64,000 nucleotides of DNA from positions 306,805 through 370,804 of the IMG/VR virus record IMGVR_UViG_3300030385_002649. The stretch is one strand, 5' to 3'. The translations under genes and the position numbers were made by a program. Below are positions 38,841 to 62,327 of this stretch, piece after piece. Each line of letters starts with the position of its first letter. The first letter of the stretch is position 1. Source of the DNA: a virus. Below the pieces are notes generated by a model. That model was given only the letters and a program-made list of their open reading frames with translations. It made no database searches and was not told the origin of the DNA.

Positions 38841-38849
38841 GCCCGAGCC

Positions 38850-38883
38850 AAGTGGCATGGACCAAGGGGAACCCATGCCACTT
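38850..38883 (+). terminator. Perfect 11-bp terminator-like hairpin
   Basis: AAGTGGCATGG pairs with CCATGCCACTT across a 12-base loop and is followed by TTT. The left arm overlaps the first copy of the AGCCAAGTGG motif. It lies 34 bp before the 124-aa gene, so it may attenuate rightward transcription. Confidence 0.6.
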
Positions 38884-38916
38884 TTTAAACCGTATCCCCA
38901 CAATTGGAGTATTACC

Positions 38917-39291
38917 ATGGCCGTTCAAATGCAAATCAAGATTGGCAAGCCCACCCTCACCCACTTCGCCACGCTGGAGAAGCTCGGGTACGCCCCCACC
39001 CAGGGGGAGGAGACCATCCGTTTCGAGGCCACGAAGGTCCACGCGGAGTTCGACCTCACGGGTGGGGACGTGCTGTCCCGCCTCAAGGCGTGCATCGCTG
39101 CGAAGGAGTGCTTCTCCTACAAGACGCGCTTCACGGTGGAGCGGGAGGGTGAGGCTCAGGTCCTCTTCTGCTTCCCCGCGTGTGCGGCCTTGGACCGGGT
39201 GGCGAAGGGCCTGAGTGCTCTCGTCGCCAAGCCTGTCAAGAAGGGGAAGAAGGTGGCTAAGGCTGCGTTCTCCCTGGACGACCTCGTCTAG
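38917..39291 (+). CDS. SFSxDDL-tail protein A, 124 aa
   Basis: GGAG lies 8 nt before the ATG at 38917; a longer frame from 38857 is less likely. One of three paralogues (also 47353 and 62353) sharing a K-L-G-Y core, an aromatic C-x2-F region, an S-A-L-V-A-K segment and an acidic tail with F-S-x-D-D-L (here AAFSLDDLV). The acidic F/D/L tail recalls the protein-interaction tails of single-strand binding proteins, but no OB fold can be proved. GC-rich, regular codon use suggests high expression. A 10-bp hairpin follows. Confidence 0.8.
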   Translation: MAVQMQIKIGKPTLTHFATLEKLGYAPTQGEETIRFEATKVHAEFDLTGGDVLSRLKACIAAKECFSYKTRFTVEREGEAQVLFCFPACAALDRVAKGLSALVAKPVKKGKKVAKAAFSLDDLV

Positions 39292-39296
39292 TATTT

Positions 39297-39321
39297 GGCC
39301 AGGCCCCCTTAGGGCCTGGCC
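39297..39321 (+). terminator. Hairpin after SFSxDDL protein A
   Basis: GGCCAGGCCC (39297-39306) pairs fully with GGGCCTGGCC (39312-39321) around CCTTA, followed by ATTTA. Strong stem, weak U-tract; probable terminator. Confidence 0.7.
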
Positions 39322-39361
39322 ATTTACCTATGTGTAGTAACAACTTTAGGCTATGGGGTTC

Positions 39362-39420
39362 CTCGTAGCACACCCGGTGAGTGATGATCCGTTTGGTGAT
39401 CCATTCTCGTAGCACACCCG
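39362..39420 (+). repeat. Two 15-bp direct repeats before the zinc-ribbon gene
   Basis: CTCGTAGCACACCCG occurs at 39362-39376 and 39406-39420, 44 bp apart start to start, directly upstream of the ribosome-binding site at 39421. Placement suggests operator sites or a small duplication. Confidence 0.55.
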
Positions 39421-39432
39421 TAGGAGGGATTG

Positions 39433-39678
39433 ATGGATAAGATGGTTGGAGAGTGTTGTGACATGGAGTTGGTGGCTTTGGGGGTGAAGGTCCTGGAGGC
39501 GGTCCCTGGGGAGTGCCCGTGTTGTGGTGACACGGGGACTGTTGAGGTCATCCAGGGTGAGAAGCGTTTCTTGCTTTGTGATGGGTGTCACCAGGAGCAG
39601 GTGGAGGCTGAGATCGACTCCAGGGAGTTGGAGTTGGAGTTGGAGTTGGAGTTCGCTGACGCCTTGGTGGACGACTAG
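39433..39678 (+). CDS. Zinc-ribbon protein with Glu-Leu repeats, 81 aa
   Basis: AGGAGGG precedes the ATG at 39433. CPCC near residue 28 and CDGC near residue 49 give a four-cysteine ribbon; a tandem Glu-Leu stretch encoded by GAGTTG repeats follows near 65-74. A partial copy of its 3' part lies at 28388-28427 inside the array. Likely nucleic-acid binding. Confidence 0.7.
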   Translation: MDKMVGECCDMELVALGVKVLEAVPGECPCCGDTGTVEVIQGEKRFLLCDGCHQEQVEAEIDSRELELELELEFADALVDD

Positions 39679-39727
39679 TTGGTAAACTTAGAATTACCCT
39701 GGGTTCGGAACCCCGCTTCGATTGGCG

Positions 39728-39733
39728 TATAAT
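39728..39733 (+). promoter_or_regulatory. Possible -10 box
   Basis: TATAAT, with TTCGGA 18 bp upstream, in the 108-bp spacer after the zinc-ribbon gene. Could drive the 39.8-40.3 kb genes. Moderate at best. Confidence 0.3.
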
Positions 39734-39786
39734 CAATTGGTCAACTCACTGGCTGGACCATGTTCTCGTTCTTACAGGGCATTATT

Positions 39787-39852
39787 ATGAGCGCGCTAGT
39801 GGATCCCCTGGGTTTTTCACTGGTGGGTTGGCCATTATCACTGGGAGGTTGA
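39787..39852 (+). CDS. Possible 21-aa peptide
   Basis: ATG preceded by AGGGC; encodes MSALVDPLGFSLVGWPLSL and two glycines, hydrophobic. It ends 2 nt before the next GTG start. Too short to be certain. Confidence 0.3.
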   Translation: MSALVDPLGFSLVGWPLSLGG

Positions 39853-39854
39853 CT

Positions 39855-39959
39855 GTGAGTCAGGTTCTTATTTTCGTGGCTCTTTGGGTCATAATGATTG
39901 TCTGCACGAATCGTGCGGCTTTGGCTAAGGCCAGGAGGGGGAGTGATGAAGCTCTTTAA
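39855..39959 (+). CDS. Single-span membrane peptide, 34 aa (GTG start)
   Basis: GGGAGG lies 5 nt before the GTG. SQVLIFVALWVIMIVC is a membrane helix, followed by a basic tail. Overlaps the next gene by 14 nt. One of a dozen such peptides in this window. Confidence 0.6.
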   Translation: MSQVLIFVALWVIMIVCTNRAALAKARRGSDEAL

Positions 39960-40338
39960 GGTGGTGTGGGATTCTAAGGTTCCTAAGTGTCCGAACGCTA
40001 GCGCTGGATCGCTTAAGTGTGATTGTGTCAGCGGGTCGTGCATCAAGGAGGGGTTGGAGGGTCCGATCACGTCCTTGATCACTTGTGATGATTTTCTCTC
40101 GGCGGCGAGGATTATCATGGGTGCGTACAGTGACCACTTGCTCAAGGTCACTAATGTCCAGGAGGTTGCTTGCCCGATTGAGGCGGCGATGCTCGTGCGT
40201 GAGTTGAGGGGGTTGAGTTTCGACTTTCTCAACCCTGATCGTCGGGTGGGCTTGGAGCCAAGTGGTCTCGTGGAGGAGGATAAAGTTTATTTCCCTCCCG
40301 GTTGCGCCTGGGGGAGTGACTCGCCTTCTGTTTCTTAA
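39946..40338 (+). CDS. Cysteine-containing hypothetical protein, 130 aa
   Basis: AGGAGGGGG just before the ATG at 39946 fixes the start. CDCVSGSC near residues 26-33 and other Cys may bind metal; the rest is globular (ITCDDFLSAARIIMGAYSDH). An AGCCAAGTGG copy lies in the coding sequence at 40256. Unknown family. Confidence 0.7.
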   Translation: MKLFKVVWDSKVPKCPNASAGSLKCDCVSGSCIKEGLEGPITSLITCDDFLSAARIIMGAYSDHLLKVTNVQEVACPIEAAMLVRELRGLSFDFLNPDRRVGLEPSGLVEEDKVYFPPGCAWGSDSPSVS

Positions 40339-40407
40339 AACGGGGAAATAAACAGATCCCCTGCCTCCTAATATTCTGAGTTAGGTTCGAATATTAGTGA
40401 AGTAATT

Positions 40408-40490
40408 CTAACATTGGGCTTACCCCCTTAATGTTAGTGAGCCTGACGAGCGCCCCCTAATGTTAGTTGATTTTCTAGTCCTAATGTTAG
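40408..40490. repeat. Cluster of TAATGTTAG repeats
   Basis: TAATGTTAG-type 9- to 10-mers occur at 40429, 40457 and 40481, with an inverted copy (CTAACATTGG) at 40408 and looser AATATTAG versions on both sides. The region is AT-rich and gene-free. Iteron-like spacing (24-28 bp) would suit a replication or regulator binding site. Confidence 0.55.
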
Positions 40491-40512
40491 GGGGGTAACG
40501 CGAATATTGGTG

Positions 40513-41111
40513 CGTGTACATGTGAAGTTCGCGCACGGTATTGTAATAACTCCTTGGTTCCAGAGTGAACAAAGAAAAAACCCAGGAGAACACCGAAACA
40601 CCAGGAACGTGCCCCAGGGTTCAAGCTTAAACTTCTACATACGCGAGAGGCTCCCAGAGCGCGGGAGAGGGAACGGGTTTCACCCCTATTATTTTCGTAT
40701 CGTTTTACATGTCGTTAATTTTCTTTTTTTGGGCCTCCAGTGTTCTGTGGGGTTTTTCTCCCCTTTAGTGTCTTGTTGGTTTCTTTTTTTCTCTCTTTTT
40801 TGTTGGGGGGTGTGTTGTGCGTCGTTTGCTTGTTCGTTTGTTTCTTGTGTTGAGGAGGTTGGGGCGGTGAGGTGAGGTGAGGTGAGGGTGGGATGGGGTG
40901 TGTTTCATCCTTTGATGTGTCTTGGGGTGGGGTTGTTTCCTTTTTCTTCGTAGGTGGGTGTTTTGTCCTTTTTTTGGGTGGGGCATTTGGGGTGTGAGTC
41001 CTTCGTGTTGTCCCTGCGTTTTGGGTTTTGTTTGTTAGGGGGGTTGTGGGGCCTTGTGTGGGGGTTTTGTGCTTTCTCGTGGTTTTTACGTGGTCGTGTA
41101 CATGTGAGGTT
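40513..41111 (+). repeat. 17-bp repeat flanking the G/T-rich tract
   Basis: CGTGTACATGTGA[A/G]GTT appears at 40513-40529 and 41095-41111 with one mismatch. The repeats contain the palindrome TGTACA and bracket most of the skewed block. Confidence 0.5.
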
Positions 41112-41530
41112 GTTTTTGGGTGAGTTGGTGATGTTGTTTTCTTTGGGTGTTGGGGTGGTTGGGTCGTTCCTGATCGTTTTCTTGGGGTTCGTGTTCGACT
41201 TGTAGGGGGAGGGAGGTGTTTGGGGGTTAGCCAAGTGGGTTCGCGTGATCGGGTGTTTTTTTTCTTTCTTGGGGTGTGGGGCGTTGTTGTTGGGGTGACG
41301 TTGTGTAGTGATTCTCCTTTTTTTCTTGTGAAGGGTGGGGTTCCGGGGTTTGAGGAGCTTGTGGTGGGGTTTCTTTATCGTCCGGGTTGGAGGGGTGGTA
41401 TTGTTCTTTGGACGTTTTCTGTTAACCTGGGGTTTGTTTTCTTTGGGTGGTTGGCGTTTTTTTTCTTGTCTGAGTGGTTGAGGGTGGTTGAGGGTGGTTG
41501 AGGGTGGTTGAGGGTGGTTGAGTAGGGTTT
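40690..41530. other. Strand-skewed G/T-rich block without convincing genes
   Basis: For about 840 bp the plus strand is almost all G and T, with short tandem arrays (GGTGA near 40866-40886; AGGGTGGTTG repeated four times at 41481-41520). Plus frames at 40954..41205 (83 aa) and 41220..41501 (93 aa) would be very hydrophobic simply because of base content; minus frames are Lys/Asn/Pro low complexity. G-runs could form quadruplexes. From 40339 to 41570 I see no reliable gene. Confidence 0.6.
41481..41520 (+). repeat. Tandem 10-bp repeat, four copies
   Basis: AGGGTGGTTG repeated exactly four times, with partial units on each side, at the end of the G/T-rich block and 50 bp before the next gene. 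Confidence 0.8.
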
Positions 41531-41570
41531 TGTGCTCTGCTCGGCCCTTGACGTGTACAAGGAGGTGATA

Positions 41571-41768
41571 ATGACTGGCGATGATCCCACGCTCTATGAT
41601 ATTGTTCGGTATCTGGGGCGTAGGCTGCAGTTGGCGACTTCTTTTAAGCTGGCTGGTCACTCGACTGGGTTGGCTGAGGAGGTTGGGCCTCTGCAGTTGG
41701 CGTTCGATGCTCTGGTTCCTCTGATTGAGTCGGAGGAGGCGAGTATGCAGGGTGGTTCGGAGGAGTGA
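41571..41768 (+). CDS. Hypothetical protein, 65 aa
   Basis: AGGAGGTGATA immediately before the ATG at 41571 is a near-perfect ribosome-binding site and overrides a longer frame from 41532. Helical soluble protein (LYDIVRYLGRRLQLATSF). Followed by tRNA-Arg. Confidence 0.7.
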   Translation: MTGDDPTLYDIVRYLGRRLQLATSFKLAGHSTGLAEEVGPLQLAFDALVPLIESEEASMQGGSEE

Positions 41769-41807
41769 CTGCTTAGTTTGTGGGTGTTCTAGAATAACCC
41801 TCGCCTT

Positions 41808-41880
41808 GGTCCCGTAGCTCAATGGATAGAGCAATCGCCTTCTAAGCGATCGGTTGTGGGTTCGAATCCCGCCGGGACTA
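41808..41880 (+). tRNA. tRNA-Arg (UCU)
   Basis: Complete cloverleaf: acceptor GGTCCCG/CGGGACT with A discriminator, D arm GCTC...GAGC, anticodon stem ATCGC/GCGAT with loop CTTCTAA, T arm GTGGG-TTCGAAT-CCCGC. Reads AGA codons, which suits the AT-richer left-arm genes. CCA is not encoded. Confidence 0.95.
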
Positions 41881-41898
41881 TCTGATTGGAGGTGACTT

Positions 41899-42207
41899 AT
41901 GGTGTCGCTACAACATGTGAGGACGCAATCGTTGCGTCATTTTCGGGAGAAGCCTATTGGCAAGAATGGTTACTATTTGACCGTCTTGCTGAAGGGAGTC
42001 CCGGTGGTTCGGGCTGTGATCTCGAAGGGTTTGGCTTTGGCCGTGGTGGCTGAGGTGATGGGTGGTAGGATGAACATGTGTCGTCCCTCGGTCTCGTTCG
42101 GCATGGTGGACAAGTCGTGGTGCAAGATTGGCCCGACCTGTTTGGTGGAGCGTCGTGACTCCGGTGGGGTGGAGAGTTTCTTCGTCGTGACGGTTCTTCC
42201 GGCGTGA
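41899..42207 (+). CDS. Hypothetical protein, 102 aa
   Basis: GGAGG 6 nt before the ATG. Basic N-terminus, then a strand-rich segment (GYYLTVLLKGVPVVRAVISK) and three Cys. Its stop overlaps the next GTG (GTGA). Family unknown. Confidence 0.7.
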   Translation: MVSLQHVRTQSLRHFREKPIGKNGYYLTVLLKGVPVVRAVISKGLALAVVAEVMGGRMNMCRPSVSFGMVDKSWCKIGPTCLVERRDSGGVESFFVVTVLPA

Positions 42208-42596
42208 GTGGGCTGAAGATGGTCCTTCTTGGGGATCTTGAGGTCGGTCGGACTTTCACGACTTGTGGGTCTTTGTTTGAGAAGGTGGGCCTTGGTCCTT
42301 CTGATCAGACGGTGGCGGCGAAGCGGATGGACTCGGGTCGGGAGGTTGTGACGATTTTTCCGGCTGGGGTTGAGGTGGAGGTTTCGCCTCGGTTGGATCA
42401 CTGTATTGGGGAGGCTAATGTCGCTAGTTCGACTGATCCAGTGCGGGTTTTCTGTGTGGATGACGTGGTTCGAAATGCTCTCGACACGGTGACGTTCTTG
42501 AAGGCGCAGAAGAAGAAGATGTCGATACTTCAGATCTATGGGGTGCTTGATGCTCTGTGGGAGAAGACGGCCTCGGCGAGTTTGGTTAAGCGGTAG
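42204..42596 (+). CDS. Hypothetical protein, 130 aa (GTG start)
   Basis: The GTG at 42204 shares bases with the upstream stop. Globular (VGRTFTTCGSLFEKVGLG; REVVTIFPAGVEVEVSPRLD) with a helical C-terminus. No known motif. Confidence 0.68.
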   Translation: MSGLKMVLLGDLEVGRTFTTCGSLFEKVGLGPSDQTVAAKRMDSGREVVTIFPAGVEVEVSPRLDHCIGEANVASSTDPVRVFCVDDVVRNALDTVTFLKAQKKKMSILQIYGVLDALWEKTASASLVKR

Positions 42597-42635
42597 CTGC
42601 TTTAGTGCTGGGGTGCGAATCCTCCCCTTGTCGTC

Positions 42636-42657
42636 TGGGGTCATAGACATTTTTTTA
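42636..42657 (+). terminator. Terminator-like hairpin with T7 tract
   Basis: GTCT and AGAC form a short stem around GGGGTCAT, followed by A and seven T. Short stem, good U-tract. It closes the tRNA-Arg gene group. Confidence 0.5.
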
Positions 42658-42718
42658 AGCCCCCTCATCGTTAGCCAAGTGGGGTGGGTAAACCGTAGGC
42701 TGAATTTGGAGAATTGGT

Positions 42719-43255
42719 ATGATGGATTTCTTGAAGAGCGGTATGGGTTCGTTGGTTGACCTGGCGAAGCGTCAGCAGAACGCTGCTCGTTTGGGCGACA
42801 TGGGTGTGACTCGGATTCGTGCGGCTCGGCTGGTTGCCTTGAACAGCCCGATCATGGTGCCCAAGAAGGGGCTCCTCGACGCGGACGGCAAGGAGATCAA
42901 GTCGGACGAGATGGTCCAGGCTGGCTGGAAGCCGAAGAAGGTCATCGTCGAGCGCTTGGACGCGGACCTCGCCTACCTCGGCGACATCTCGATCTGGGCT
43001 GGTGAGATCGGGATCTCGGTTCCGACGCCGAAGTCGGTCCTGTCGACGGGTGTGATCACCTGCGACGAGGGGCTGACCTGTCCGGAGCTGGTCCTCAACG
43101 AGGCTGAGGGTGACGACCTGATCATCCTCCCGACCCTCGGCGTCCTGGCGTTGGAGGCGTTCGACTCCGGGCTCCAGGTGATCCCGGTGAGTCCTTCCTT
43201 CACGGGTGACGCTGGGGGTTTGTCCCTCTGCCACGTGCGTCGCGTCGTTAAGTAG
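42719..43255 (+). CDS. Hypothetical protein with regular codon use, 178 aa
   Basis: GGAG 9 nt before the ATG. The coding sequence is strongly GC-rich with uniform codon choice, like the SFSxDDL paralogues, suggesting abundant product. Mixed alpha/beta sequence (IMVPKKGLLDADGKEIKSD; GVITCDEGLTCPELVLNE). A hairpin (CTAGCT/AGCTAG) follows. Unknown function, possibly structural. Confidence 0.75.
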   Translation: MMDFLKSGMGSLVDLAKRQQNAARLGDMGVTRIRAARLVALNSPIMVPKKGLLDADGKEIKSDEMVQAGWKPKKVIVERLDADLAYLGDISIWAGEIGISVPTPKSVLSTGVITCDEGLTCPELVLNEAEGDDLIILPTLGVLALEAFDSGLQVIPVSPSFTGDAGGLSLCHVRRVVK

Positions 43256-43489: not shown

Positions 43490-43770
43490 TTTGGTGGCAG
43501 TATTGCGCCGTAGAGTTGATCAGTTAGCGTTGCTTTGGTAATGACGCGGTCGTTATCTTGAGCCAAGTGTGTGGAGTCCTCTCATTTGGGGCGTTGAAGC
43601 ATGCTGGTTGTCGCACGGGGGCTCCAATCCCGCTGATGGGTGGTACCGGGATCCCGGTAGGGTTCTGAGAGAAGATACCGGTTATTGTCAACTCGCCATC
43701 ATTTTTTTTGTTGAACTCATTGTGGGTTCTGCGCTTGTTTTGGGTTTTACATGTACACAGGAAGTGAAGT

Positions 43771-44355
43771 ATGTTGTTGAAGAAGGCTGTCGAGGACCGT
43801 AAGGTTCGAGATGCCACGAAGCAGAGGCACACGGATCGCCAAAAGGAGTTGTTTCTTTTGGCGATCCCGTTGAAGGAGCGAATCCTCGTTTTCTTAGAGG
43901 AGAACTTCTTGGAGTTGGACAGAACACAGTTCAGCTTCCAAAACGGAGATGAGGAAAGGAAAAAGACCTGGGATCGCCTTAGGTCTTGCAGACTTCGAGT
44001 TGACGACGTCGAGGTTGACGTTCGGGATCTCGATTTCAGCGAAGACGGCAGTCCGAAAACTCCTAAGATCGAGAAGAAAACCTATTGGATTGATCTTGAT
44101 CGCCGTCATGGTGATTGGGTGACCCATGAGGTGACTGGGGTTAAGACTTGGGTCCCAGAGAATCGCCTCAGTATCCAGTGTGGGCGCGCCATGTTCTGTA
44201 GGTCATTGCATTTGGTGAACGTCATGAGGGCTATCCTCGGTGATCCGGCTCCAGTGAACTGGACGGGTCAGGTGAAGTCAGCCAGGGCGGCCTTCAACGC
44301 GCTTCCTGAGGATCAGAGGGTGATTCTCATGCGGGAGTTCTTGGCAGCATTGTGA
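43771..44355 (+). CDS. Hypothetical protein, 194 aa
   Basis: AGGAAG upstream of the ATG. Charged helical N-terminus, then a globular part (CRLRVDDVEVDVRDLDFSED; KTYWIDLDRRHGDWV). Its stop codon lies in the 5' arm of a hairpin whose loop is AGCCAAGTGGG. The 280 bp between tRNA-Lys and this gene hold a variant motif copy and no clear gene. Confidence 0.72.
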   Translation: MLLKKAVEDRKVRDATKQRHTDRQKELFLLAIPLKERILVFLEENFLELDRTQFSFQNGDEERKKTWDRLRSCRLRVDDVEVDVRDLDFSEDGSPKTPKIEKKTYWIDLDRRHGDWVTHEVTGVKTWVPENRLSIQCGRAMFCRSLHLVNVMRAILGDPAPVNWTGQVKSARAAFNALPEDQRVILMREFLAAL

Positions 44356-44375
44356 GCCAAGTGGGTGCGATGCTG
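44345..44375 (+). repeat. Hairpin displaying the AGCCAAGTGG loop at a gene end
   Basis: CAGCATTGTG (44345-44354) pairs with TGCGATGCTG (44366-44375) over 10 bp including G-U pairs, leaving AGCCAAGTGGG as the loop. It covers the stop codon of the 194-aa gene and the start of the 26-aa peptide. Confidence 0.6.
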
Positions 44376-44450: not shown

Positions 44451-44458
44451 GAGGGTTT

Positions 44459-45620: not shown

Positions 45621-46223
45621 ATGAACTCATTTAACAAGAAAACGAAAGTATCGGCATCGACGGATTATATCAATCGCGTCAATTGGCTCGAACAAAGCAA
45701 CGCAGCTAAGTACGAACGCATCAAGGCCCTTGAGGCGGACAACCTCGAACTTACTGAGATGGCTGCGCGCGGCTGCTCGCCTGATGAGCACAAGATCAAC
45801 GTGTTCATCGGCCAACTCAAGGCCGAGAAGGCAATGTTGCGCAAGGAGTGCGACGACCTCAAGGCTCAGCTTCAAGAGCCCGTAACCCTCGCAATCGAGG
45901 TCGTCAAGCTGAAGTCCTTGCGCATGGACGACGCGAAGCGAAGCGATCTCCTTCGTCAAGAATTCGTGCTTGAGCAACGCAAGGTCCACGCTATCCAGTT
46001 GGCACATCGGGTTGAGAGGCAAGCCCTACTCGCTCAGTTGGAGGTGGCTAAGTGCCAAGCCAAGTCGTCGCCACAGGAGCCCGAGTACGATTCCTCGGTT
46101 CTTAGTGGGGACAACAAGGCTGACATCGCCCTCGCCTCGATCATGGCTGCGACCGGCCAGACCGCCATCCGGTGGATCTCCGTGGCGACCGCTGTGGCTA
46201 GCGGTTTCTACTGCATGGTGTAA
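45621..46223 (+). CDS. Coiled-coil protein with C-terminal membrane anchor, 200 aa
   Basis: The ATG at 45621 follows AAGAGAG. Residues 15-150 are heptad-like (VNWLEQSNAAKYERIKALEA), and the last 25 form a membrane span after GQTAIRWIS. The genes at 61333 and 62834 have the same plan, and the 61333 product shares a Q-T-x-x-R-W-x-x-V/A-A segment at the same place, so the three may be distant paralogues anchored in the inner membrane. Confidence 0.72.
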   Translation: MNSFNKKTKVSASTDYINRVNWLEQSNAAKYERIKALEADNLELTEMAARGCSPDEHKINVFIGQLKAEKAMLRKECDDLKAQLQEPVTLAIEVVKLKSLRMDDAKRSDLLRQEFVLEQRKVHAIQLAHRVERQALLAQLEVAKCQAKSSPQEPEYDSSVLSGDNKADIALASIMAATGQTAIRWISVATAVASGFYCMV

Positions 46224-46224
46224 G

Positions 46225-46542
46225 ATGCACACCAAGCAACTTCTAGCTAAAAAAGAGATCCTCACCGCCTTGACGCAAGCTGTCCTGGCGGGAGTTAACG
46301 TCTCTTGTAACAATTGTGCCAGCCTCACTCCGACTGACATTTGTGTGATGGCTGAGTCTCAAGACAACACTCCAGTTGAAGACTCATTGGCGTTTGCCAC
46401 GGACCGTGAGAACTGGGAGGCGAGTTTTTTCATAGCCAAGCCTCATGAGTTCTTCTGTCCTCAGTTCCGACTTAAGCTTGGTCCTGACGGCGTGATTCCG
46501 CTAGGTTTCCCGGCTCGGTTGCTCCCATTGGCGGAGGGTTAG
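46225..46542 (+). CDS. Hypothetical protein, 105 aa
   Basis: Starts 1 nt after the upstream stop. MHTKQLLAKKEILTALTQAV leads to a CNNC pair and a globular C-terminus (PHEFFCPQFRLKLGPDGVIP). Its TAG stop lies within an AGCCAAGTGG copy. Unknown. Confidence 0.68.
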   Translation: MHTKQLLAKKEILTALTQAVLAGVNVSCNNCASLTPTDICVMAESQDNTPVEDSLAFATDRENWEASFFIAKPHEFFCPQFRLKLGPDGVIPLGFPARLLPLAEG

Positions 46543-46546
46543 CCAA

Positions 46547-46738
46547 GTGGTGCCGCCCGATAAGTTGTTTCCTCCGCCTCCTCGGTATAAAATCCGGGTG
46601 GTTCAACGGAGGACTGGCAGAACGAAAGAAACCGAACTATACGACGGCCCAAAGGCTGCTCGGCTGTACGGAGAACTAGGTGACAAGTTCACCGTTGAGA
46701 AAGGCTACGACGTGAAGGTGATTGATGTTGAACCGTGA
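46547..46738 (+). CDS. Hypothetical protein, 63 aa (GTG start)
   Basis: Tandem GTGs follow the motif copy; GGAGGG 9 nt upstream can serve either. Basic, proline-rich start (PPDKLFPPPPRYKIRVVQRR). Overlaps the next gene by 14 nt. Confidence 0.6.
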   Translation: MVPPDKLFPPPPRYKIRVVQRRTGRTKETELYDGPKAARLYGELGDKFTVEKGYDVKVIDVEP

Positions 46739-47941: not shown

Positions 47942-48184
47942 ATGAAGAGACACATGGTGGTTGCTGACGAGGAAGGTGGCGGCATAAGGGGCTATCGAAG
48001 CCAAGTGGTGTTCATGCTCCCCCGTTACATTTCAGACAACCTAAACTCGAAAAGCGTGCGCGCTTACCTAGATATGATGTTGGCGGACAGTCCGCTGTTC
48101 GTGCCTTCGCTTAATGTCGAAGTGATCGAATTCGAGGGGAATATAATCCTTCCTCTTGACGCGTCAGACTGGATCAGCGGATGA
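47942..48184 (+). CDS. Hypothetical protein, 80 aa
   Basis: No clear ribosome-binding site. Acidic C-terminal half (LNVEVIEFEGNIILPLDASD). Contains an AGCCAAGTGG copy read as S-Q-V. Overlaps the next gene as ATGA. Confidence 0.6.
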   Translation: MKRHMVVADEEGGGIRGYRSQVVFMLPRYISDNLNSKSVRAYLDMMLADSPLFVPSLNVEVIEFEGNIILPLDASDWISG

Positions 48185-49322: not shown

Positions 49323-49357
49323 GCGGGGTCCAGCCAAGTGGTTGGGCCCCGCCTTTT
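49323..49357 (+). terminator. Terminator hairpin with AGCCAAGTGG loop
   Basis: GCGGGGTCC (49323-49331) pairs with GGGCCCCGC (49344-49352) over nine pairs; the loop is AGCCAAGTGGTT; then C and TTTT. The clearest case of the repeated motif presented as the loop of a terminator. Confidence 0.7.
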
Positions 49358-50117: not shown

Positions 50118-50611
50118 GCCTTATCTGGAATGAATACTTAGTTTGGAACTTTAGGCACGCTAACGGGGACCAATTGGATAAATTCAATTCGCTCTTCAAA
50201 CAGTATGATTTAACGCCCTCGTACACGTGTGGTGTGGCGGCCCTCGCGGTCAACCAGTTCGGGGCCAACGTTGGCCATGTGTTTTGGCCCGTCAAGTTTG
50301 GTAAGATCTCGGCGGCTGAGGCGGTTGTCGTTCTTATCAACGGGGCTAGGTTTACAACCGAGACTAGTCTCTTGTTTGATGCGCCTGATGATGTTTGGAA
50401 CTCTAGGTGCGCGGCTGAGATGAAAAGCATCATCCTTGACACGGAGCTTTATTTCGGCGTCGTAGATCTCCGCACTGAGGTCTTGCGCCCGCTGATAACC
50501 AGCCAAGTGGGTGGTCTCGTGGCTCCTCCGGTGAAGGCGGTGTGTATGTGTCCGATTCAGAGTCTCTGGGGACTTGGCCATGACGCGAACTGTCCGGAGA
50601 AAACGCAATGA
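50114..50611 (+). CDS. Hypothetical protein, 165 aa
   Basis: ATGA coupling fixes the start at 50114. Starts MSLIWNEYLVWNFRHANGD; the C-terminus has CMCPIQSLWGLGHDANC with three Cys and one His that might bind metal. Carries an in-frame motif copy (S-Q-V) at 50501. Confidence 0.68.
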   Translation: MSLIWNEYLVWNFRHANGDQLDKFNSLFKQYDLTPSYTCGVAALAVNQFGANVGHVFWPVKFGKISAAEAVVVLINGARFTTETSLLFDAPDDVWNSRCAAEMKSIILDTELYFGVVDLRTEVLRPLITSQVGGLVAPPVKAVCMCPIQSLWGLGHDANCPEKTQ

Positions 50612-51165
50612 GGAGAGCCCAGCCAAACGAGGAGGATAACGAGTTAAAAGGGCTGTTCTACTACTCGCTCGTTTTCTCCTTTTCTGGGGATTCCTTCAAA
50701 GCGGTCTCGCGTGCGGACAGGGAAGTGACAAGGTTGGCTGAGCTAAAACTTCATATCTTGCAAGTTGAGCATGAGTACAGCTGGCCTGATGGGAGTTTGT
50801 GCTTTCTTGTTCGGTCTAAGACGCCTCTGACAATCAAGATGCTGAATGAGGAGGTGTTTATCGAGGATTGGTTGGGTTCTACGGTCAAGGTCTACGGAAT
50901 CACGTCAGTCAATCCTCGTTATGTCCGGATCACTCCTTTGACTTATGAGGAGAGGTTCGAACTTGAGAAGCCAGCATCAATTCGTCTCATCACGAAACGG
51001 TTCGATGAAAGAAACGGTCTAATGTTGAAGTACCGTGAAACTCGGACGAAATGCACGACCTGTAAAAAGGGCAAAAACGCGTGTGAAACTTGTTCAGTCA
51101 TTCTGGCTGAGTGTGAGAAGAAGTTAGCCGAGTGGGAGAGCAGGCCCAGGATCATGGAAGGGTAA
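50608..51165 (+). CDS. Hypothetical protein, 185 aa
   Basis: ATGA-coupled. Strand-rich body (GLFYYSLVFSFSGDSFKAV; GSTVKVYGITSVNPRYVRIT) and a C-terminal Cys cluster CTTCKKGKNACETC. A possible small zinc site at the end. Family unknown. Confidence 0.68.
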   Translation: MRRAQPNEEDNELKGLFYYSLVFSFSGDSFKAVSRADREVTRLAELKLHILQVEHEYSWPDGSLCFLVRSKTPLTIKMLNEEVFIEDWLGSTVKVYGITSVNPRYVRITPLTYEERFELEKPASIRLITKRFDERNGLMLKYRETRTKCTTCKKGKNACETCSVILAECEKKLAEWESRPRIMEG

Positions 51166-51824: not shown

Positions 51825-52288
51825 TGAGTGGCGAATTTGACAAGTACGAGGTCTCCGACACCATGAGTGTCACCACGTGCTGCACATGCGGGGTCGTCTT
51901 CGGACTCCCCAATCACCTGAACCATGCGTTAAGACGCAACGGGAGAGCCTTTTATTGTCCAAATGGGCACGAACTCCATTACACCGATGGCATGAACCTG
52001 GAAGAGTGGGTTGAGCACGGTAGACGTCTAGCGACAGAATTGCGGCAACACAAGCTTGGTGTCAATCAGGCTCGGTTCCAGCGCGATCAGTTGGAAGCTA
52101 AAGTGGTTGAGCTTGAAGCTCTCCATTCTGAGTTGAGAGCAGTCGCACGAGCTGCTCGGAGTCAGTCAGTCGGCTCGACTGCTGTTACTCCCACATGTTG
52201 CGGATTGATCATGGTCACCAACCTGGGCGGTTCTCTCCATTGTCAAAGGAACTGTATGAAGAGCCAGCCAAGTAGTGGGCCCCAGTAA
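51824..52288 (+). CDS. Zinc-finger and coiled-coil protein, 154 aa
   Basis: N-terminal CCTC...FYCPNGH finger (residues about 18-50), central coiled coil (RFQRDQLEAKVVELEALHSE) and a C-terminal Cys-rich part (CCGLIMVTNLGGSLHCQRNC). A variant motif copy lies at 52266, just before the stop. Probably DNA or protein binding. Confidence 0.68.
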   Translation: MSGEFDKYEVSDTMSVTTCCTCGVVFGLPNHLNHALRRNGRAFYCPNGHELHYTDGMNLEEWVEHGRRLATELRQHKLGVNQARFQRDQLEAKVVELEALHSELRAVARAARSQSVGSTAVTPTCCGLIMVTNLGGSLHCQRNCMKSQPSSGPQ

Positions 52289-52936: not shown

Positions 52937-53434
52937 ATGTTTAGGTTGAGAAACTTTGTCGGGAAGGAAATTTTCTTCGGTTCACACCGTGGAATTTTGA
53001 CAGGATATGACAGACATGTTCTGTACGTCGAATATTACCAAAGGGTAAACGCCGTTGGTAAGCCTAGGACGATCCAACGAGACGTCCTCCATTATTTGTA
53101 TGATGAGAATGGTCAAAAAGTGCTCGACTGGTCAAGGACGACTTTTGGGGCGCAGATGAGCCAAGTGGTTGTCGCGCGTCCTGTTGTTATCTCCCTCGCA
53201 GAGGAACAGCCCTGGCACACTGAGGAGAACAAGATAGAATGCCCGATAGCTCTCGATAAGTGGCTCAAGCGTCACAATCGGAAGAATAAGAAGACTGCTC
53301 GGGAGAAACGGGAAGTCGTCGCCTTAAAGAAGAAAATCGACGGTTTGGTGCCGTACGTCTTCGTCGCGAGCATGGCTGTTTTGCTTCCTCCGATTGTGTG
53401 GTGTTTGCGGCTAGTTGTTGCTGCGCTCATCTGA
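52937..53434 (+). CDS. C-terminally anchored protein, 165 aa
   Basis: Soluble N-terminal domain (GKEIFFGSHRGILTGYDRHV), basic linker and C-terminal membrane segment (YVFVASMAVLLPPIVWCLRL). AAGGAG lies upstream of the ATG. Contains a motif copy at 53159 read S-Q-V and flanked by pairing arms. Confidence 0.7.
   Translation: MFRLRNFVGKEIFFGSHRGILTGYDRHVLYVEYYQRVNAVGKPRTIQRDVLHYLYDENGQKVLDWSRTTFGAQMSQVVVARPVVISLAEEQPWHTEENKIECPIALDKWLKRHNRKNKKTAREKREVVALKKKIDGLVPYVFVASMAVLLPPIVWCLRLVVAALI
53150..53177 (+). repeat. AGCCAAGTGG hairpin inside a coding sequence
   Basis: GCGC-(A)-GATG (53150-53158) pairs with TGTC-GCGC (53170-53177) with one bulged A, exposing AGCCAAGTGGT. Same layout as the gene-end copies, but within a gene. 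Confidence 0.5.
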
Positions 53435-54627: not shown

Positions 54628-54790
54628 TAAGGGGACGCGTGGTCGCTCGCGCCTAGAAAGCCAAGTGGCTGGTGCCCTTCGGTCTTGTATTGACGCACAT
54701 GGGCCGATTACCAAAGCTTATCTTGGTTCGGCTGCAAAACGAGCGGTGGCTGCGGTCGCCGCTTTTATTAAGGAGAGTGAAAATGGCTAA
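54614..54790 (+). CDS. Alanine-rich small protein, 58 aa (GTG start)
   Basis: Open frame from the GTG at 54614, overlapping both neighbours. Reads TDIDKGTRGRSRLESQVAGA and continues into an alanine-rich helix (LGSAAKRAVAAVAAFIKE). The motif copy at 54659 is read S-Q-V here and sits in a bulged 7-bp hairpin (54649-54675). Confidence 0.6.
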   Translation: MTDIDKGTRGRSRLESQVAGALRSCIDAHGPITKAYLGSAAKRAVAAVAAFIKESENG

Positions 54791-56545: not shown

Positions 56546-56718
56546 AGGTTGGAAAACAAATCATTAGGATCAACGTTCAGATGATCTTGATGGTTAGAGC
56601 GTTCAAGAAGAAAGATTGGGTCGAGTACGGTACTCGGCTTAACAAGGTGATCTTAGAGCTTGAAGCTCTAAGGATGATGGGTTGCCCAAGTCGCAGCCAA
56701 GTGGAGGTCGAACAGTGA
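56542..56718 (+). CDS. Hypothetical protein, 58 aa (GTG start)
   Basis: GTGA coupling. Basic helical protein (QIIRINVQMILMVRAFKKKD). The end SRSQVEVEQ contains a motif copy (56695) and the stop overlaps another GTG. Confidence 0.62.
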   Translation: MKVGKQIIRINVQMILMVRAFKKKDWVEYGTRLNKVILELEALRMMGCPSRSQVEVEQ

Positions 56719-57973: not shown

Positions 57974-57984
57974 GGCTGAGCCAA
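57955..57984 (+). terminator. Perfect 10-bp inverted repeat over a stop codon
   Basis: TTGGCTCAGC and GCTGAGCCAA pair completely around a 10-base loop; the right arm contains the first half of an AGCCAAGTGG copy. An alternative fold would put the motif in a loop instead, so the two structures exclude each other. Confidence 0.5.
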
Positions 57985-58098
57985 GTGGGTGTGGTCACAA
58001 ATTGTGTGGCTGTGGGAGCAGGACTTGCGCTTGTCGCTGCGATTGCTCCCTGCCCATCAACCCCCATGGGGCTTAACCTGGACACCAAAACCTTTTAA
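57985..58098 (+). CDS. Small hydrophobic protein, 37 aa (GTG start)
   Basis: Begins inside the motif copy. VVTNCVAVGAGLALVAAIAP is a membrane helix or signal, followed by CPSTPMGLNLDTKTF. A ribosome-binding site is not obvious. Confidence 0.45.
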   Translation: MGVVTNCVAVGAGLALVAAIAPCPSTPMGLNLDTKTF

Positions 58099-58120
58099 CA
58101 TTCGAAAATACGAGGCTCAA

Positions 58121-58333: not shown

Positions 58334-58608
58334 AACGAGTTCCTCAACCTGACTACTACGTCTACGGGTGCAGATTTCTTGAAGGCAAGAAATATCTTTA
58401 CTACTGGACAGGAAAGAGATTCTCAACCTCCATAGACGAAGCCAAAATCTTCCCGAGATTCGCTTTGGCCAGTGAGGAAATTTGGAATGGCCCGCTTTGG
58501 GACAACACTGAGTACTTTAAGAACTTAGGCTTCCAAAAGTTCATGCCCAGAGACGTCAACGAGAAGAAGCCAGAATGGTTCGATGGACCAGAAATCAAAA
58601 CGCCATGA
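58330..58608 (+). CDS. Hypothetical protein, 92 aa (GTG start)
   Basis: Aromatic-rich (PDYYVYGCRFLEGKKYLYYW), ends PEWFDGPEIKTP. GTGA/ATGA coupling on both sides. Looks like a compact beta protein of unknown role. Confidence 0.66.
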   Translation: MKRVPQPDYYVYGCRFLEGKKYLYYWTGKRFSTSIDEAKIFPRFALASEEIWNGPLWDNTEYFKNLGFQKFMPRDVNEKKPEWFDGPEIKTP

Positions 58609-59039
58609 TTAGCATTGTAAGGAAGAACCTGCTCACTAGGGTTGGTTATACTCCCTATTGTGTCAACATTGCTTGTGTTGACACAAGCCGGTCTAAGTTC
58701 GATGGGGAACAATTTAAGTGTGAAAGCTGTGACTGGCGTTCCGAGTTCGAGTCTGAGTTCATCAAGAAGTATCTTAAGTTCAAACAAGGCGGCCTGACCC
58801 TAGATGCGTTTGTTGAATGTAGGGATGCGCTGGCCTTAGCGATGGAGTGGCTAGACCCGAAGGACGATATGGAGCTTTCCCGAGATGAGCTAAAATGGTT
58901 AGATGATCGTCTGATGAGAGCTACTATTTTGGCGGATCAATTATCTGAACAAACGCCTAAGACCAACATTCGCATTAGTCCAGTCGAAGGTTTTAACGAC
59001 CTAGACGATTATATGGATTATTCAGGAGGAGTCATATGA
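58605..59039 (+). CDS. Zinc-ribbon-containing protein, 144 aa
   Basis: CVNIAC near residues 19-24 and CESC near 39-42 make a ribbon; the C-terminal part is helical and acidic. ATGA coupling at both ends. Confidence 0.68.
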   Translation: MISIVRKNLLTRVGYTPYCVNIACVDTSRSKFDGEQFKCESCDWRSEFESEFIKKYLKFKQGGLTLDAFVECRDALALAMEWLDPKDDMELSRDELKWLDDRLMRATILADQLSEQTPKTNIRISPVEGFNDLDDYMDYSGGVI

Positions 59040-59143
59040 TTCTTGTTTTCGCAGCCTTTAGCATGTTGGTGATCGCGGTGGTTGCCGTGGTCGGCCATGG
59101 CCTTATCAACTCTTACAAAGACGGGGGTCCAAATGGACGCTAA
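59036..59143 (+). CDS. Single-span membrane peptide, 35 aa
   Basis: ILVFAAFSMLVIAVVAVVGH is one membrane helix; the short tail is polar. ATGA-coupled upstream and overlapping the P-loop gene by 11 nt. Confidence 0.6.
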   Translation: MILVFAAFSMLVIAVVAVVGHGLINSYKDGGPNGR

Positions 59144-59783
59144 GACGACGATCAACATCTGCAGTGCTGATCACTTCTTCACCGAGGGTGGGGCTTACAA
59201 TTTCATCGGGCTTCTCTTGCCTGAGGCACACGCCAAGTGCAAGAAGACGTTCAAGTGCTTCTTGGAGCGCGGAGTTGTCAAGCACCCCGATTTGGAGTGT
59301 TTCGGTATTCCGGAGTACGTGAAGCCGGACATGGCGGTAGCCATCATGGGACCATCTGGAATCGGAAAGTCCACTTTCATCAAGACAGTGATCCCCCAGC
59401 TTTATCCTGGCAAGCGAGTCATTGTCTTGGATAACACGAACGTTTTGATCTCCTCTTTGGCGTGGTACAATGACACGGCTGAGCTGAACGGTGTTCCGTT
59501 CTACATCATCAAGATGATCCCTGAGGGTTGGAAGAATTTCGACATTGACGTGGACGCTGATGGGCGGATTGTTACTGATCATGTTCTGCGGGAATTCATC
59601 AACCTGTGCGTCGAACGGAACGCTCATAACGTGCCTCGCAAGGCCATCGAGCAGATGTTCCTTCAGATGCGACAGAACGAGCCATTCTTCCCGACTAGGT
59701 ACAACTTCAAGCATGTTGTGGTTCGTGACAGCGAGTGGGCCATCGGCATCGACACGTTTGCCCTTGAACCCTTGGCGGCCTAG
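59133..59783 (+). CDS. P-loop kinase-like protein with rearranged motif order, 216 aa
   Basis: GGGGG precedes the ATG at 59133. It has hallmarks of polynucleotide kinase/NEDD4BP2-like (AAA_33) P-loop proteins: CSADHFF (10-16) with G-x-Y-x-F, an E-A-H-x2-C helix (31-36) and VIVLDNTN (96-103). In that family the Walker A loop comes first; here GPSGIGKST (73-81) sits between the A-H helix and the DNTN strand. The C-terminus (residues about 195-216) is VVVRDSEWAIGIDTF-like. The likely activity is nucleotide or nucleic-acid phosphorylation if the fold tolerates the permutation. GC-rich, regular codons. Confidence 0.75.
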   Translation: MDAKTTINICSADHFFTEGGAYNFIGLLLPEAHAKCKKTFKCFLERGVVKHPDLECFGIPEYVKPDMAVAIMGPSGIGKSTFIKTVIPQLYPGKRVIVLDNTNVLISSLAWYNDTAELNGVPFYIIKMIPEGWKNFDIDVDADGRIVTDHVLREFINLCVERNAHNVPRKAIEQMFLQMRQNEPFFPTRYNFKHVVVRDSEWAIGIDTFALEPLAA

Positions 59784-59980
59784 TGAGTAGCCTAAATGTA
59801 ACGGGGGCTCCATGGAAAAAACCGCCGTTACGCTACTGGCCATTCTTTTGGCTCGGTAAGCTATGGTTTAACATCAATTGGTGGTGGTGTAAAGGCATGA
59901 GATATGCTAAGCACATCATTATCCGAGAGGAAGCCGAATATGTCCAAAACTTCGAGAGAAGGAACAACCGAAGGCTTTAA
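59783..59980 (+). CDS. Basic aromatic protein, 65 aa (GTG start)
   Basis: GTG overlapping the previous stop. PLRYWPFFWLGKLWFNINWW is very Trp-rich and may sit at a membrane surface; the C-terminus is charged. Unknown. Confidence 0.55.
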   Translation: MSSLNVTGAPWKKPPLRYWPFFWLGKLWFNINWWWCKGMRYAKHIIIREEAEYVQNFERRNNRRL

Positions 59981-60017
59981 CTGCCCGGAGTATCTGAAGT
60001 CCTTTGGGGTGAAATGA
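59940..60017 (+). CDS. Possible 25-aa peptide
   Basis: ATG inside the previous gene. SKTSREGTTEGFNCPEYLKS and four more residues, ATGA-coupled to the next gene. Small but well placed. Confidence 0.4.
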   Translation: MSKTSREGTTEGFNCPEYLKSFGVK

Positions 60018-60301
60018 AGAAATTTCTCGTTTTTGCCGGGGTTGATTATTCTCCGGCTGGAGGGATCCGTGATCTCATCGGAACGACGGACGACATAGAG
60101 TCAGCTGTTCGGCTGAGTGACGAGGAAGACTTGATCAACGGTGAGGATCTCAAGTACGATTGGGCTCATATCTTTAACGTCGAGACGGGCGAGACTGAGT
60201 GTTATCGGTTTAATGATGGGAAATGGGGCAAAAACGATGTCTGGTTTCCTAATCTTGCAACCTTGGAGAAGGAAAATGCAAAGCTTTTGGGAGAGATTTA
60301 A
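60014..60301 (+). CDS. Hypothetical protein, 95 aa
   Basis: MKKFLVFAGVDYSPAGGIRD, an acidic middle and YRFNDGKWGKNDVWFPN. The pattern (short strand, G-G-x-x-D-x-x-G, EDA-like helix) resembles small phage proteins annotated only as conserved hypotheticals. Confidence 0.68.
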   Translation: MKKFLVFAGVDYSPAGGIRDLIGTTDDIESAVRLSDEEDLINGEDLKYDWAHIFNVETGETECYRFNDGKWGKNDVWFPNLATLEKENAKLLGEI

Positions 60302-60443
60302 GTTTAAGCTACAATTTCAATTGTGGTGGTTAGGCGGTGCATTCAAGCACTTATTGTGCAAGGTACTCAATCATAAGTGGGCGAACTCGCGGCACGGCGA
60401 TCTGCGAAAGTGTACTAGGTGTAAGCTTGCCGAGTTTGTTTAA
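60276..60443 (+). CDS. Small basic protein with C-x2-C, 55 aa
   Basis: GGAGAAGG before the ATG. QSFWERFKFKLQFQLWWLGG then HGDLRKCTRCKLAEFV. Tail may be half of a zinc site. TAATG junction to the next peptide. Confidence 0.58.
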   Translation: MQSFWERFKFKLQFQLWWLGGAFKHLLCKVLNHKWANSRHGDLRKCTRCKLAEFV

Positions 60444-60529
60444 TGGATGGTGATAAGAAGGAAGTGATGGCTCGGATCTTGTGGGTCCTAGGTATGATTC
60501 TTCTTATGGCGCTAACTTCGAAGTTATGA
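60443..60529 (+). CDS. Single-span membrane peptide, 28 aa
   Basis: DGDKKEVMARILWVLGMILL and eight more residues. Its TGA stop is followed directly by GCCAAGTAG, a motif variant, as with the 194-aa gene at 44355. Confidence 0.55.
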   Translation: MDGDKKEVMARILWVLGMILLMALTSKL

Positions 60530-60564
60530 GCCAAGTAGTGGTGTGATGGTGTAGGAGAATAATC

Positions 60565-61047
60565 ATGAAAATTTTTAGGATGGTATCGAATAAAGGATTC
60601 CATTGTGTGATTGGAGATCCAAGCGTTCTAAAGGAAGAAACGAGATTCTGCGAGGAGGAAGAACGGTGCAAACTGGACCCGGGTGGGTTGCTCCACCTTA
60701 AGATTCCCTGGCATGAGTTCGAGGTCCAAGGGGTGAAGTTCGCGATTCAGCTTCATAACGCTGAGTTCTTTGGTCGCAACATGCGGGAGAAGCAATCCGG
60801 CAACCTTTATGGTGATGATCTTGTCGCTTTCTTTAGCGGCGGGAAGGAATTCATCATACCTAAGGGTGTTCATGATGAATTGCTCACAACGTTGAAACAG
60901 TTGAGTAAATCAACCGAGGCGGCTCATATGGAGATGGATGCTGATGACAACGTGCGTCACTTGGAAGAGAACATTGATTTCATCTCGACCAAGAATAAGA
61001 GCGTCGCAGAAATCAATGCGGCTTTGAACAAACCCGCTGGAGAATAG
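60565..61047 (+). CDS. Hypothetical protein, 160 aa
   Basis: AGGAG upstream. Globular (HLKIPWHEFEVQGVKFAIQL) with an acidic helical C-terminus. Abuts the next start. Unknown family. Confidence 0.68.
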   Translation: MKIFRMVSNKGFHCVIGDPSVLKEETRFCEEEERCKLDPGGLLHLKIPWHEFEVQGVKFAIQLHNAEFFGRNMREKQSGNLYGDDLVAFFSGGKEFIIPKGVHDELLTTLKQLSKSTEAAHMEMDADDNVRHLEENIDFISTKNKSVAEINAALNKPAGE

Positions 61048-61266
61048 ATGAAAATCGATAAGACTCAGTATATCGGCTACTTCGTGATGTGGAATGTCTT
61101 ATTCGCGGCGTTAGATCACCTCCATGGCGACCCGATCGAGTGGGGGTCGAACTTCATGCTCGCAGCCTTGCTGCTGAGTGCGTTGATCACCGGGATCTTG
61201 TTAGTAACTAAGACGATTGACCTAATCCAAATCAACTTCGAAAAGAAAACAGATCAACTTCCTTAG
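61048..61266 (+). CDS. Membrane protein, 72 aa
   Basis: Two hydrophobic segments (YIGYFVMWNVLFAALDHL; FMLAALLLSALITGILL) separated by a short polar loop, and a charged tail. Starts immediately after the previous stop. Confidence 0.68.
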   Translation: MKIDKTQYIGYFVMWNVLFAALDHLHGDPIEWGSNFMLAALLLSALITGILLVTKTIDLIQINFEKKTDQLP

Positions 61267-61300
61267 GGCGTTCCTTAGGATAAAATTTTTTCGTAATTTA

Positions 61301-61317
61301 GAAGGTGTTTCACCTTC
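61301..61317 (+). terminator. Perfect 7-bp hairpin before a ribosome-binding site
   Basis: GAAGGTG-TTT-CACCTTC, then GAAAGGAG. It follows the membrane protein gene after a TTTTTT run (61287) and precedes the 319-aa gene; terminator or leader hairpin. Confidence 0.5.
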
Positions 61318-61332
61318 GAAAGGAGACGTTGT

Positions 61333-62292
61333 ATGTCAACGCGACGATTTAGAGTGAAGGACTCGTGGGGGCCAGCTACGGCTGACCGAAAAGAGTTAGC
61401 TCAGGTGCCCGGCATGTACGCCGGGCACACCCTAACGGGCCACGCTTTGTCGGCTAGTGGCAAATCGGTGTGGACTAAGATTGTTGGCGAATCTTGCCGG
61501 ATTCCCGTCGAGTTTGTCGAGTGGGTTCAGGGTGGCACTCTGCTACCGTTAAGCTTTGTCAAGGCAAACGCCGCTATGGGACCTGGGCGCAGCTTGGATA
61601 GCATCGAAGTGGGGGACTATCTTAAATTCTCCATCGACGATGGCAATAGCTGGACCCGTCGGATCACGTCGATTGGCGTGAAGGCTGATGACACCAAGTT
61701 TCTTAGCTTGTACAATGATGACACTGGTTCCTCGTTCTGTGTCCCGGTCAATTTCTTCAGCCAGTGTCTTCACATGTGTGAGGTCTTTAGTGAACAGGAA
61801 TTCCGTTCCTTGAACGATCCTGTCGTTATTGCTCTTAACGCGAAGATCACTAAGCTTGAGCGTTCTGTGGTTCAACACCAACAGGCGTGTGGCACTTGGA
61901 AGGAAGAACTCCGCAAAGCCATCGTCACATCGAAGCATTTCCAAGACGGCAACAACATTCTTCACCGGGCTAATGTGAAGTTTAAGCAGCGTATTGCTGA
62001 GCTTTACATTCTTCACCGGGCTAATGTGAAGTTTAAGCAGCGTATTGCTGAGCTTGAGCTTCTTGACCAGGGCTTCGGTGAGTGCTCGGTGAGTGCTCCG
62101 GTTGCTGTGGCGCCTGCTGTTCCGGTGATGACGGTCGCTCTTGCCTCTGTGCAAGCTTCGGTTCCGATTCGTGCTGAGTCTGCGAAGGAGAACATTGCTG
62201 TTGCTTCTTTCAAGGCTACGGCTTTTCAGACTATTGTTCGCTGGGGTGCCGTTGTGGCCCTTGGCATTGGCGCTCTAGTAGCGTTCGCTTAA
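61333..62292 (+). CDS. Coiled-coil protein with C-terminal membrane anchor, 319 aa
   Basis: AAAGGAG upstream. N-terminal 150 residues contain beta-rich sequence (DYLKFSIDDGNSWTRRITSI), then a coiled coil with an exact 48-nt (16-aa, ILHRANVKFKQRIAEL) tandem duplication, an Ala/Val/Pro linker and a C-terminal membrane span after QTIVRWG. Same plan as the 200-aa gene at 45621. Confidence 0.75.
   Translation: MSTRRFRVKDSWGPATADRKELAQVPGMYAGHTLTGHALSASGKSVWTKIVGESCRIPVEFVEWVQGGTLLPLSFVKANAAMGPGRSLDSIEVGDYLKFSIDDGNSWTRRITSIGVKADDTKFLSLYNDDTGSSFCVPVNFFSQCLHMCEVFSEQEFRSLNDPVVIALNAKITKLERSVVQHQQACGTWKEELRKAIVTSKHFQDGNNILHRANVKFKQRIAELYILHRANVKFKQRIAELELLDQGFGECSVSAPVAVAPAVPVMTVALASVQASVPIRAESAKENIAVASFKATAFQTIVRWGAVVALGIGALVAFA
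61957..62054 (+). repeat. Exact 48-bp tandem duplication inside the 319-aa gene
   Basis: The DNA encoding ILHRANVKFKQRIAEL is present twice without a base change, separated by one codon (TAC). Recent slippage or unequal exchange, in frame. Confidence 0.85.
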
Positions 62293-62299
62293 CTGGATA

Positions 62300-62327
62300 G
62301 AGGGCACAGCCAAGTGGTTGTGTCCTC
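62300..62327 (+). repeat. AGCCAAGTGG hairpin between genes
   Basis: GAGGGCACA pairs with TGTGTCCTC (nine pairs, one G-U) leaving GCCAAGTGGT as the loop. It lies between the 319-aa gene and SFSxDDL protein C; no U-tract follows. Confidence 0.65.

Follow-up and report, generated by a model that had tools for sequence, protein, structure and literature searches.

A sense-strand word linked to gene ends in one arm of a T4-superfamily jumbo phage: a candidate site of elongation control

What reads a short word that recurs dozens of times, in a single orientation, along one run of genes in a giant phage genome? The question is raised by the 10-mer AGCCAAGTGG in a stretch of 64,000 nucleotides (hereafter the window) that forms the last 64,000 bases of the 370,804-base (370.8-kb) phage record IMGVR_UViG_3300030385_002649 from IMG/VR (positions 306,805 to 370,804), where an initial annotation, made from the letters alone, had listed 17 plus-strand copies. 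We find that it is a nucleotide-level recognition word with about 30–45 copies, in sense orientation only and in one arm of the genome, and that its position is tied to the ends of genes. We tentatively read it as an orientation-dependent site of elongation control, similar in several respects to the stoperators of mycobacteriophages.

Copy number, orientation and confinement of the word

All 17 listed copies are present at the correct coordinates on the plus strand, 14 of them exact and three (43561, 52266 and 60529) with one mismatch; four more had been missed, one of them exact (33386) and three with one mismatch (46058, 51126 and 62644). With up to one mismatch allowed, the window holds 21 matches, all on the plus strand, compared with 3.7 ± 2.1 in dinucleotide shuffles (largest 11). 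The exact word, predicted to be rare by chance, has 15 copies in the window, where an order-3 Markov model predicts 0.14. Counted over the whole genome on both strands, there are 28 exact copies on the plus strand and one on the minus strand, with none for the reversed control, and the 28 are confined to 340190–370804 plus 1–60413 (~91 kb); the order-3 Markov expectation is 0.25 in 111 kb. A codon-shuffled control did not match this frequency either, as synonymous shuffling of 96 kb with 28 copies left 0.62 (maximum 3), and 0.60 were left inside open reading frames (ORFs), which hold 10. Together the shuffles, the Markov model and the codon control rule out chance or a codon effect as the origin of the word. 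A weight matrix trained on the copies extends the consensus to AGCCAAGTGGKKG, with 10–13 nt conserved, and, over 131 kb, finds 46 sites in sense orientation and 2 in antisense, against a background of about 10 per strand in 240 kb outside the arm.

Inside genes the word had been described as usually read S-Q-V, which holds for 11 of 18 copies; the other seven are read x-P-S-G, and the third frame is not used. Since two reading frames occur, the protein sequence tolerates the word and does not cause it. Nor is the word part of a tRNA gene, as the two tRNAs of the window lie elsewhere, though it resembles a D-arm of tRNA-Gln. At the gathering score, those two tRNAs are the only Rfam families in the window, and the word matches none. 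In 46 related records the same word is absent or at chance level.

Judged from its markers (rIIA, a tail-fibre-attachment-type RNA ligase, a gp20-type portal, a gp6-type baseplate protein and a gp17-type terminase), the phage is a jumbo phage of the T4 superfamily. The terminase is interrupted by an intein-sized insert: the large terminase (L013:5747-9439, genome 165747–169439) has a frame of 1,230 amino acids with a split family match, which suggests an intein or another in-frame insert. The top match of the major capsid protein in a collection of deposited phages is only 40% identical, so there is no close deposited phage; the capsids of uncultured relatives share up to 86–90% of their sequence, and viral-contig scans found no closer relatives that hold the arm. 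We treated the record as circular because reading runs in phase from its last base into its first, within an 18-base coding repeat; 9- and 18-base in-frame tandem repeats occupy window 63776–64000 at the end of the record and resume at its first base.

The gene strand map shows a rightward arm, spanning about 345 kb to 80 kb across the junction, with genes nearly all on the plus strand. The motif-bearing arm amounts to ~100 kb, about one-quarter of the genome, and is presumably an early transcription unit, judging from relatives. Copies fall every 1–1.5 kb among the small genes at window 38–50 kb and every 3–6 kb later. The composition skew turns sharply near window 38.5 kb, and the adjoining 40400–41560 is G/T-rich, has little convincing coding sequence and holds GTGGTTGAGG five times. 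On the minus strand of the left arm (window 28500–38100), TGTAGGTGTGG and TGGTATAGT each repeat 10–17 times; we set these words aside, as they are the codons for C-R-C-G-H and W-Y-S in small paralogous proteins with a zinc-finger look. The phage also encodes a macro-domain protein (window 24643–25260) and a WGR-PARP-like ADP-ribosyltransferase (L012:8173-9462), which with RNA ligases and RlaP form an ADP-ribosylation and RNA-repair set.

Gene ends, promoters and a relative with a different word

Positions were scored against genes called by a simple in-house finder, the same one for all phages compared. The clustering at gene ends noted in the initial annotation is confirmed, with 10 of 37 copies within -12 to +25 nt of a stop (2.0 expected). 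No excess was seen for copies with a start 15–80 nt downstream (6 against 3.5 expected), 18 of the 37 lie inside genes, and some are less than 5 nt from a start. Neither a second box nor sigma-70 hexamers were found at a fixed spacing from the word. Sigma-70 promoters are not enriched in the arm (13 sense, 22 antisense, 17 shuffled), although the host's promoter type may differ.

A relative of 395 kb, G003, has a portal and a capsid that are 52% and 86% identical to those of the present phage. Its one-directional arm is homologous to that described here, as supported by homologous genes in both (PARP-type ADP-ribosyltransferase, MoxR-like ATPase, ligases and RlaP). G003 lacks the present word, and an unsupervised search instead returned CCAACATGCCAC, in gene sense GTNNCAYGTTGG, which is unrelated in sequence and occurs in the arm in 28 sense and 0 antisense copies. 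Half of these (14/28) lie within the same interval around stops, where 1.7 are expected, and starts 15–80 nt downstream are again not in excess (5 against 3.0). In each phage an unsupervised search ranked its own word as the most enriched after stops, and no word stood out before starts in either arm. Sigma-70 promoters are likewise not in excess in the G003 arm (2 sense, 5 antisense, 5 shuffled). A T4-late-like box was detected upstream of genes outside the arm in both phages (CAAAAATA; CAAATATA), and therefore promoter words were not invisible to the method there. A sigma-70 r2 gene is present in G003, and none in G000. A stop-linked word was seen in these two phages only.

The arms of other relatives served as controls, and their repeated sense-strand words are mostly promoters directly before starts. 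Words lie 15–80 nt before a start in 27/33 cases in XacN1 (scored on a -10 variant), 26/28 in RAS14 (scored on a word just past the -10), 34/49 in G016 and 39/54 in G041; such promoter-like words fall inside genes in only 1/33, 0/28, 4/49 and 4/54 cases, respectively (0–8%). In the XacN1, RAS14 and G016 arms, sense sigma-70 promoters exceed antisense ones. The G041 arm (L251-L270, about 176–292 kb) carries TTAAC-N15-YGCAACA, a two-box word with 58 copies in sense and 6 in antisense, 35–46 nt before starts; at 184–193 kb it merges into strong hairpins with the common tip CGCAACA. G014 (L116-L119, 2.9–65 kb) carries an unusual promoter-like two-box word, TCTCCCTGAA-N11-AAAT, with 39 sense and 3 antisense copies, and is intermediate in that 12/39 are start-linked. 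Both the G041 TTAAC..GCAACA word and TCCCTGAA of G014 were set aside as comparable words because they are promoter-like. Also set aside was a near-palindromic cassette of G013 (L105-L115), AAAAAGAGTACTAC..GTAGTACTCTTTTT, which is present about 20 times and looks like a bidirectional terminator.

An obligatory sequence and an optional stem

The copies had been described as often forming a hairpin loop, with the loop conserved while the arms vary. We scored the helix enclosing each copy against random sites and against chimeras carrying the 3' flank of another copy. The mean exceeds both controls (p 0.002), a difference due to a few copies: strong stem-loops are borne out at 44355, 49332 and 62308 and are missing from most of the others, while 53159 and 54659 show mainly self-folding of the motif (AGCC-AAGU-GGYU). 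For the 18 copies inside genes, pairing does not exceed that of the flank-swapped controls (p 0.65), and a very stable fold is found in 3 of the 20 outside genes (0.42 expected). The register also varies, the motif lying at the stem tip in the three strong cases, in the 5' arm at 38846, in the 3' arm at 57979 and beside a hairpin at 134983 (genome 70983). G003 behaves alike, without stems beyond flank-swapped controls inside genes (p 0.22), with 7/21 outside (0.84 expected) and with a varying register. A conserved loop on varying arms is thus not the general rule, and we rejected a uniform RNA hairpin with a covarying stem, as a minority of copies outside genes accounts for the excess of pairing. 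Because in-gene copies show no excess, the register is not fixed and the relative agrees, the sequence is obligatory and the stem optional. The individual copies are listed in Table 1.

Table 1. The motif-bearing arm and copies of the word in the window (coordinates count from the first base of the window).
Feature	Position	Strand	Context
Motif-bearing rightward arm, part within window	38846–64000	+	runs on past the circular junction as far as about genome position 80,000
Exact copy, not listed initially	33386–33395	+	directly after the stop of a 70-aa ORF
Exact copy	38846–38855	+	its AAGTGG forms the 5' arm of a hairpin resembling a terminator, 38850–38883, with arms AAGTGGCATGG/CCATGCCACTT, then TTTT
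Exact copy	40256–40265	+	within a 146-aa ORF
Exact copy	41229–41238	+	within the G/T-rich stretch
Exact copy	42673–42682	+	36 nt upstream of the ATG of a 178-aa ORF, 42719–43255
Variant AGCCAAGTGT	43561–43570	+	downstream of a tRNA-Lys gene
Exact copy	44355–44364	+	overlaps the TGA stop of ORF 43771–44355; 10-bp enclosing stem
Exact copy	46541–46550	+	overlaps the TAG stop of ORF 45970–46542
Exact copy	47999–48008	+	within ORF 47942–48184
Exact copy	49332–49341	+	32 nt past a stop; tip of a long hairpin, GCGGGGTCCAG/TTGGGCCCCGC, then CTTTT
Exact copy	50501–50510	+	within a 179-aa ORF, frame S-Q-V
Variant AGCCAAGTAG	52266–52275	+	close to the 3' end of a 160-aa ORF
Exact copy	53159–53168	+	within a 165-aa ORF, frame S-Q-V
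Exact copy	54659–54668	+	31 nt past a stop
Exact copy	56695–56704	+	close to a gene junction
Exact copy	57979–57988	+	5 nt past a stop; AGCCAA forms the 3' arm of a hairpin at the gene end
Variant AGCCAAGTAG	60529–60538	+	26 nt upstream of the ATG of the ORF at 60565
Exact copy	62308–62317	+	15 nt past the stop of a 319-aa ORF; 8–10 bp enclosing stem
Weaker one-mismatch copy AGCCAAGTCG	46058–46067	+	
Weaker one-mismatch copy AGCCGAGTGG	51126–51135	+	
Weaker one-mismatch copy AACCAAGTGG	62644–62653	+	

Candidate functions and known systems

The word is private to its phage, asymmetric, sense-oriented, tied to gene ends and independent of a stem, and its arm has no detectable internal promoters; for these reasons we favour, with a probability of roughly 0.4, an orientation-dependent, stoperator-like elongation-control site. 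On this reading, a phage protein bound to the asymmetric site would stop the host RNA polymerase beyond gene ends, or make its passage conditional, such that a very long, presumably early transcription unit could be shut down or metered. The specificity, comprising the word and its binder, may evolve lineage by lineage, which would account for the different word that G003 uses in the same way; where a copy has a strong hairpin, as a few do, the stem might aid pausing. A broader version, in which the ~100-kb arm without internal promoters, the dozens of sense-strand sites at gene ends, a fast-evolving phage factor, a decision to stop or read on, and lineage-private words make up a distributed elongation code, strikes us as possible, though less likely than not.

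Several points weigh against elongation control of this kind. No candidate for a cognate binder was found among 20 small proteins scanned, and an integrase (PF00589) is absent from both phages while all controls matched, so that there is no sign of lysogeny, the state in which stoperators work. The sites are restricted to one arm and not spread over the genome, the early timing of that arm is carried over from relatives, and promoters of another host type could escape detection, which makes the lack of internal promoters uncertain. Placement in ribosome-free RNA after stops fits a site read in RNA equally well, and the sequence cannot separate reading at the DNA level from reading at the RNA level. 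The element had initially been proposed to be an RNA bound by a phage protein; an RNA-level reader is possible because of the nucleotide-level selection, the sense strand of one arm and the clustering at gene ends, while the general conserved-loop hairpin has to be given up.

Such an RNA-read site could serve antitermination or anti-polarity, with a phage protein on the word in nascent or ribosome-free RNA keeping polymerase going, for example against Rho. We consider this possible and the main rival, given copies on the sense strand only and just past stops, where the RNA is ribosome-free, strong hairpins at some of them, and an arm with neither a sigma-70 excess nor a start-linked word; yet known nut and put sites are few per genome and require a fixed hairpin, most copies here are stemless and of varying register, half lie inside translated genes, and no NusG-type protein was found. 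It is unlikely that word and hairpin together form transcript ends, as terminators or mRNA 3'-end elements. T-runs do follow the copies at 38846 and 49332, and in G003 there is more structure at the gene ends that carry the word (-19.8 against -10.4 kcal/mol, p 9e-5), but the same comparison is not significant in the present phage (p 0.19), stem and T-run are both missing at most copies, and unconditional ends every 1–3 kb would silence an arm in which no internal promoters are seen. Cleavage at a processing site, also suggested initially, is disfavoured by the half of the copies that lie inside genes.

That half also argues against a single-box promoter element standing in for the promoters of relatives, which we regard as quite improbable. 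The main sense-strand arm word is indeed often a promoter in those phages, of sigma-70 type in XacN1, RAS14 and G016 and two-box in G041, but there it precedes starts at a short distance and almost never enters genes; the present word is not start-linked, sits less than 5 nt from some starts and has no second box, and no RNA polymerase beta-type gene was found. Least probable of all, in our view, is a replication, recombination or packaging signal (Chi-like, a lagging-strand start or pac). A polar, dispersed 10-mer to one side of the skew turn near 38–40 kb would suit it, but neither the divergent arm nor the remainder of the genome contains the word, which is linked to stop codons and is co-extensive with one gene orientation in two phages; the packaging signal of the initial annotation is further disfavoured by strict sense orientation, about 30–45 copies and confinement to one arm.

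Among known systems, the stoperators of cluster A mycobacteriophages (L5, TipsytheTRex and Bxb1) are the nearest precedent. These are asymmetric 13-bp sites that number more than 20 per genome, sit in short intergenic spaces, follow the direction of transcription and are inactive if reversed (PMC9283540), with one predominant orientation and phage-specific motifs (PMC6550527). The present word is likewise short and asymmetric, in numbers comparable to the about 20–35 or more copies of stoperators, follows transcription (28:1 for exact copies, 46:2 by matrix), lies near gene boundaries and differs between phages. Unlike stoperators, it occupies one arm of a T4-superfamily jumbo phage in which neither integrase nor repressor was found, half of its copies are in genes despite the stop-linked excess, and some are joined to hairpins. 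Because the sites are not spread genome-wide and no integrase, a mark of temperate life, was found, we do not file it as a member of the stoperator family.

Lambda-type nut (boxA/boxB) and HK022 put RNA are also sense-strand elongation elements of a long early operon, some with hairpins, but they occur in one or few copies, whereas the present word occurs in dozens, without the fixed hairpin and conserved loop of boxB, without a boxA-like partner and without an identified N-like protein. PeSL (promoter early stem-loop) cassettes recur as regulatory units at the gene junctions of the variable region in T4-type phages and carry an early promoter next to the stem-loop; no promoter is linked to the present word, of which only 10–13 nt are conserved. 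Other short repeated words act at the RNA level in T4-type phages, such as the GGAG cut by T4 RegB near ribosome-binding sites and the stability tetraloop CUUCGG, and the present word differs from these in being longer, stop-tied and stem-independent. In the usual picture, early genes of T4-type phages are expressed from numerous strong promoters of host type, a pattern that related jumbo phages show, and two members of the clade seem to have replaced it by a sense-oriented, stop-linked word, different in each. Should this word prove to control elongation, the stoperator principle, or antitermination, would extend from temperate mycobacteriophages to jumbo phages, offering a route to a fast-evolving cognate factor and making the expression of ~100 kb of genes in uncultured giant phages testable by a simple reporter.

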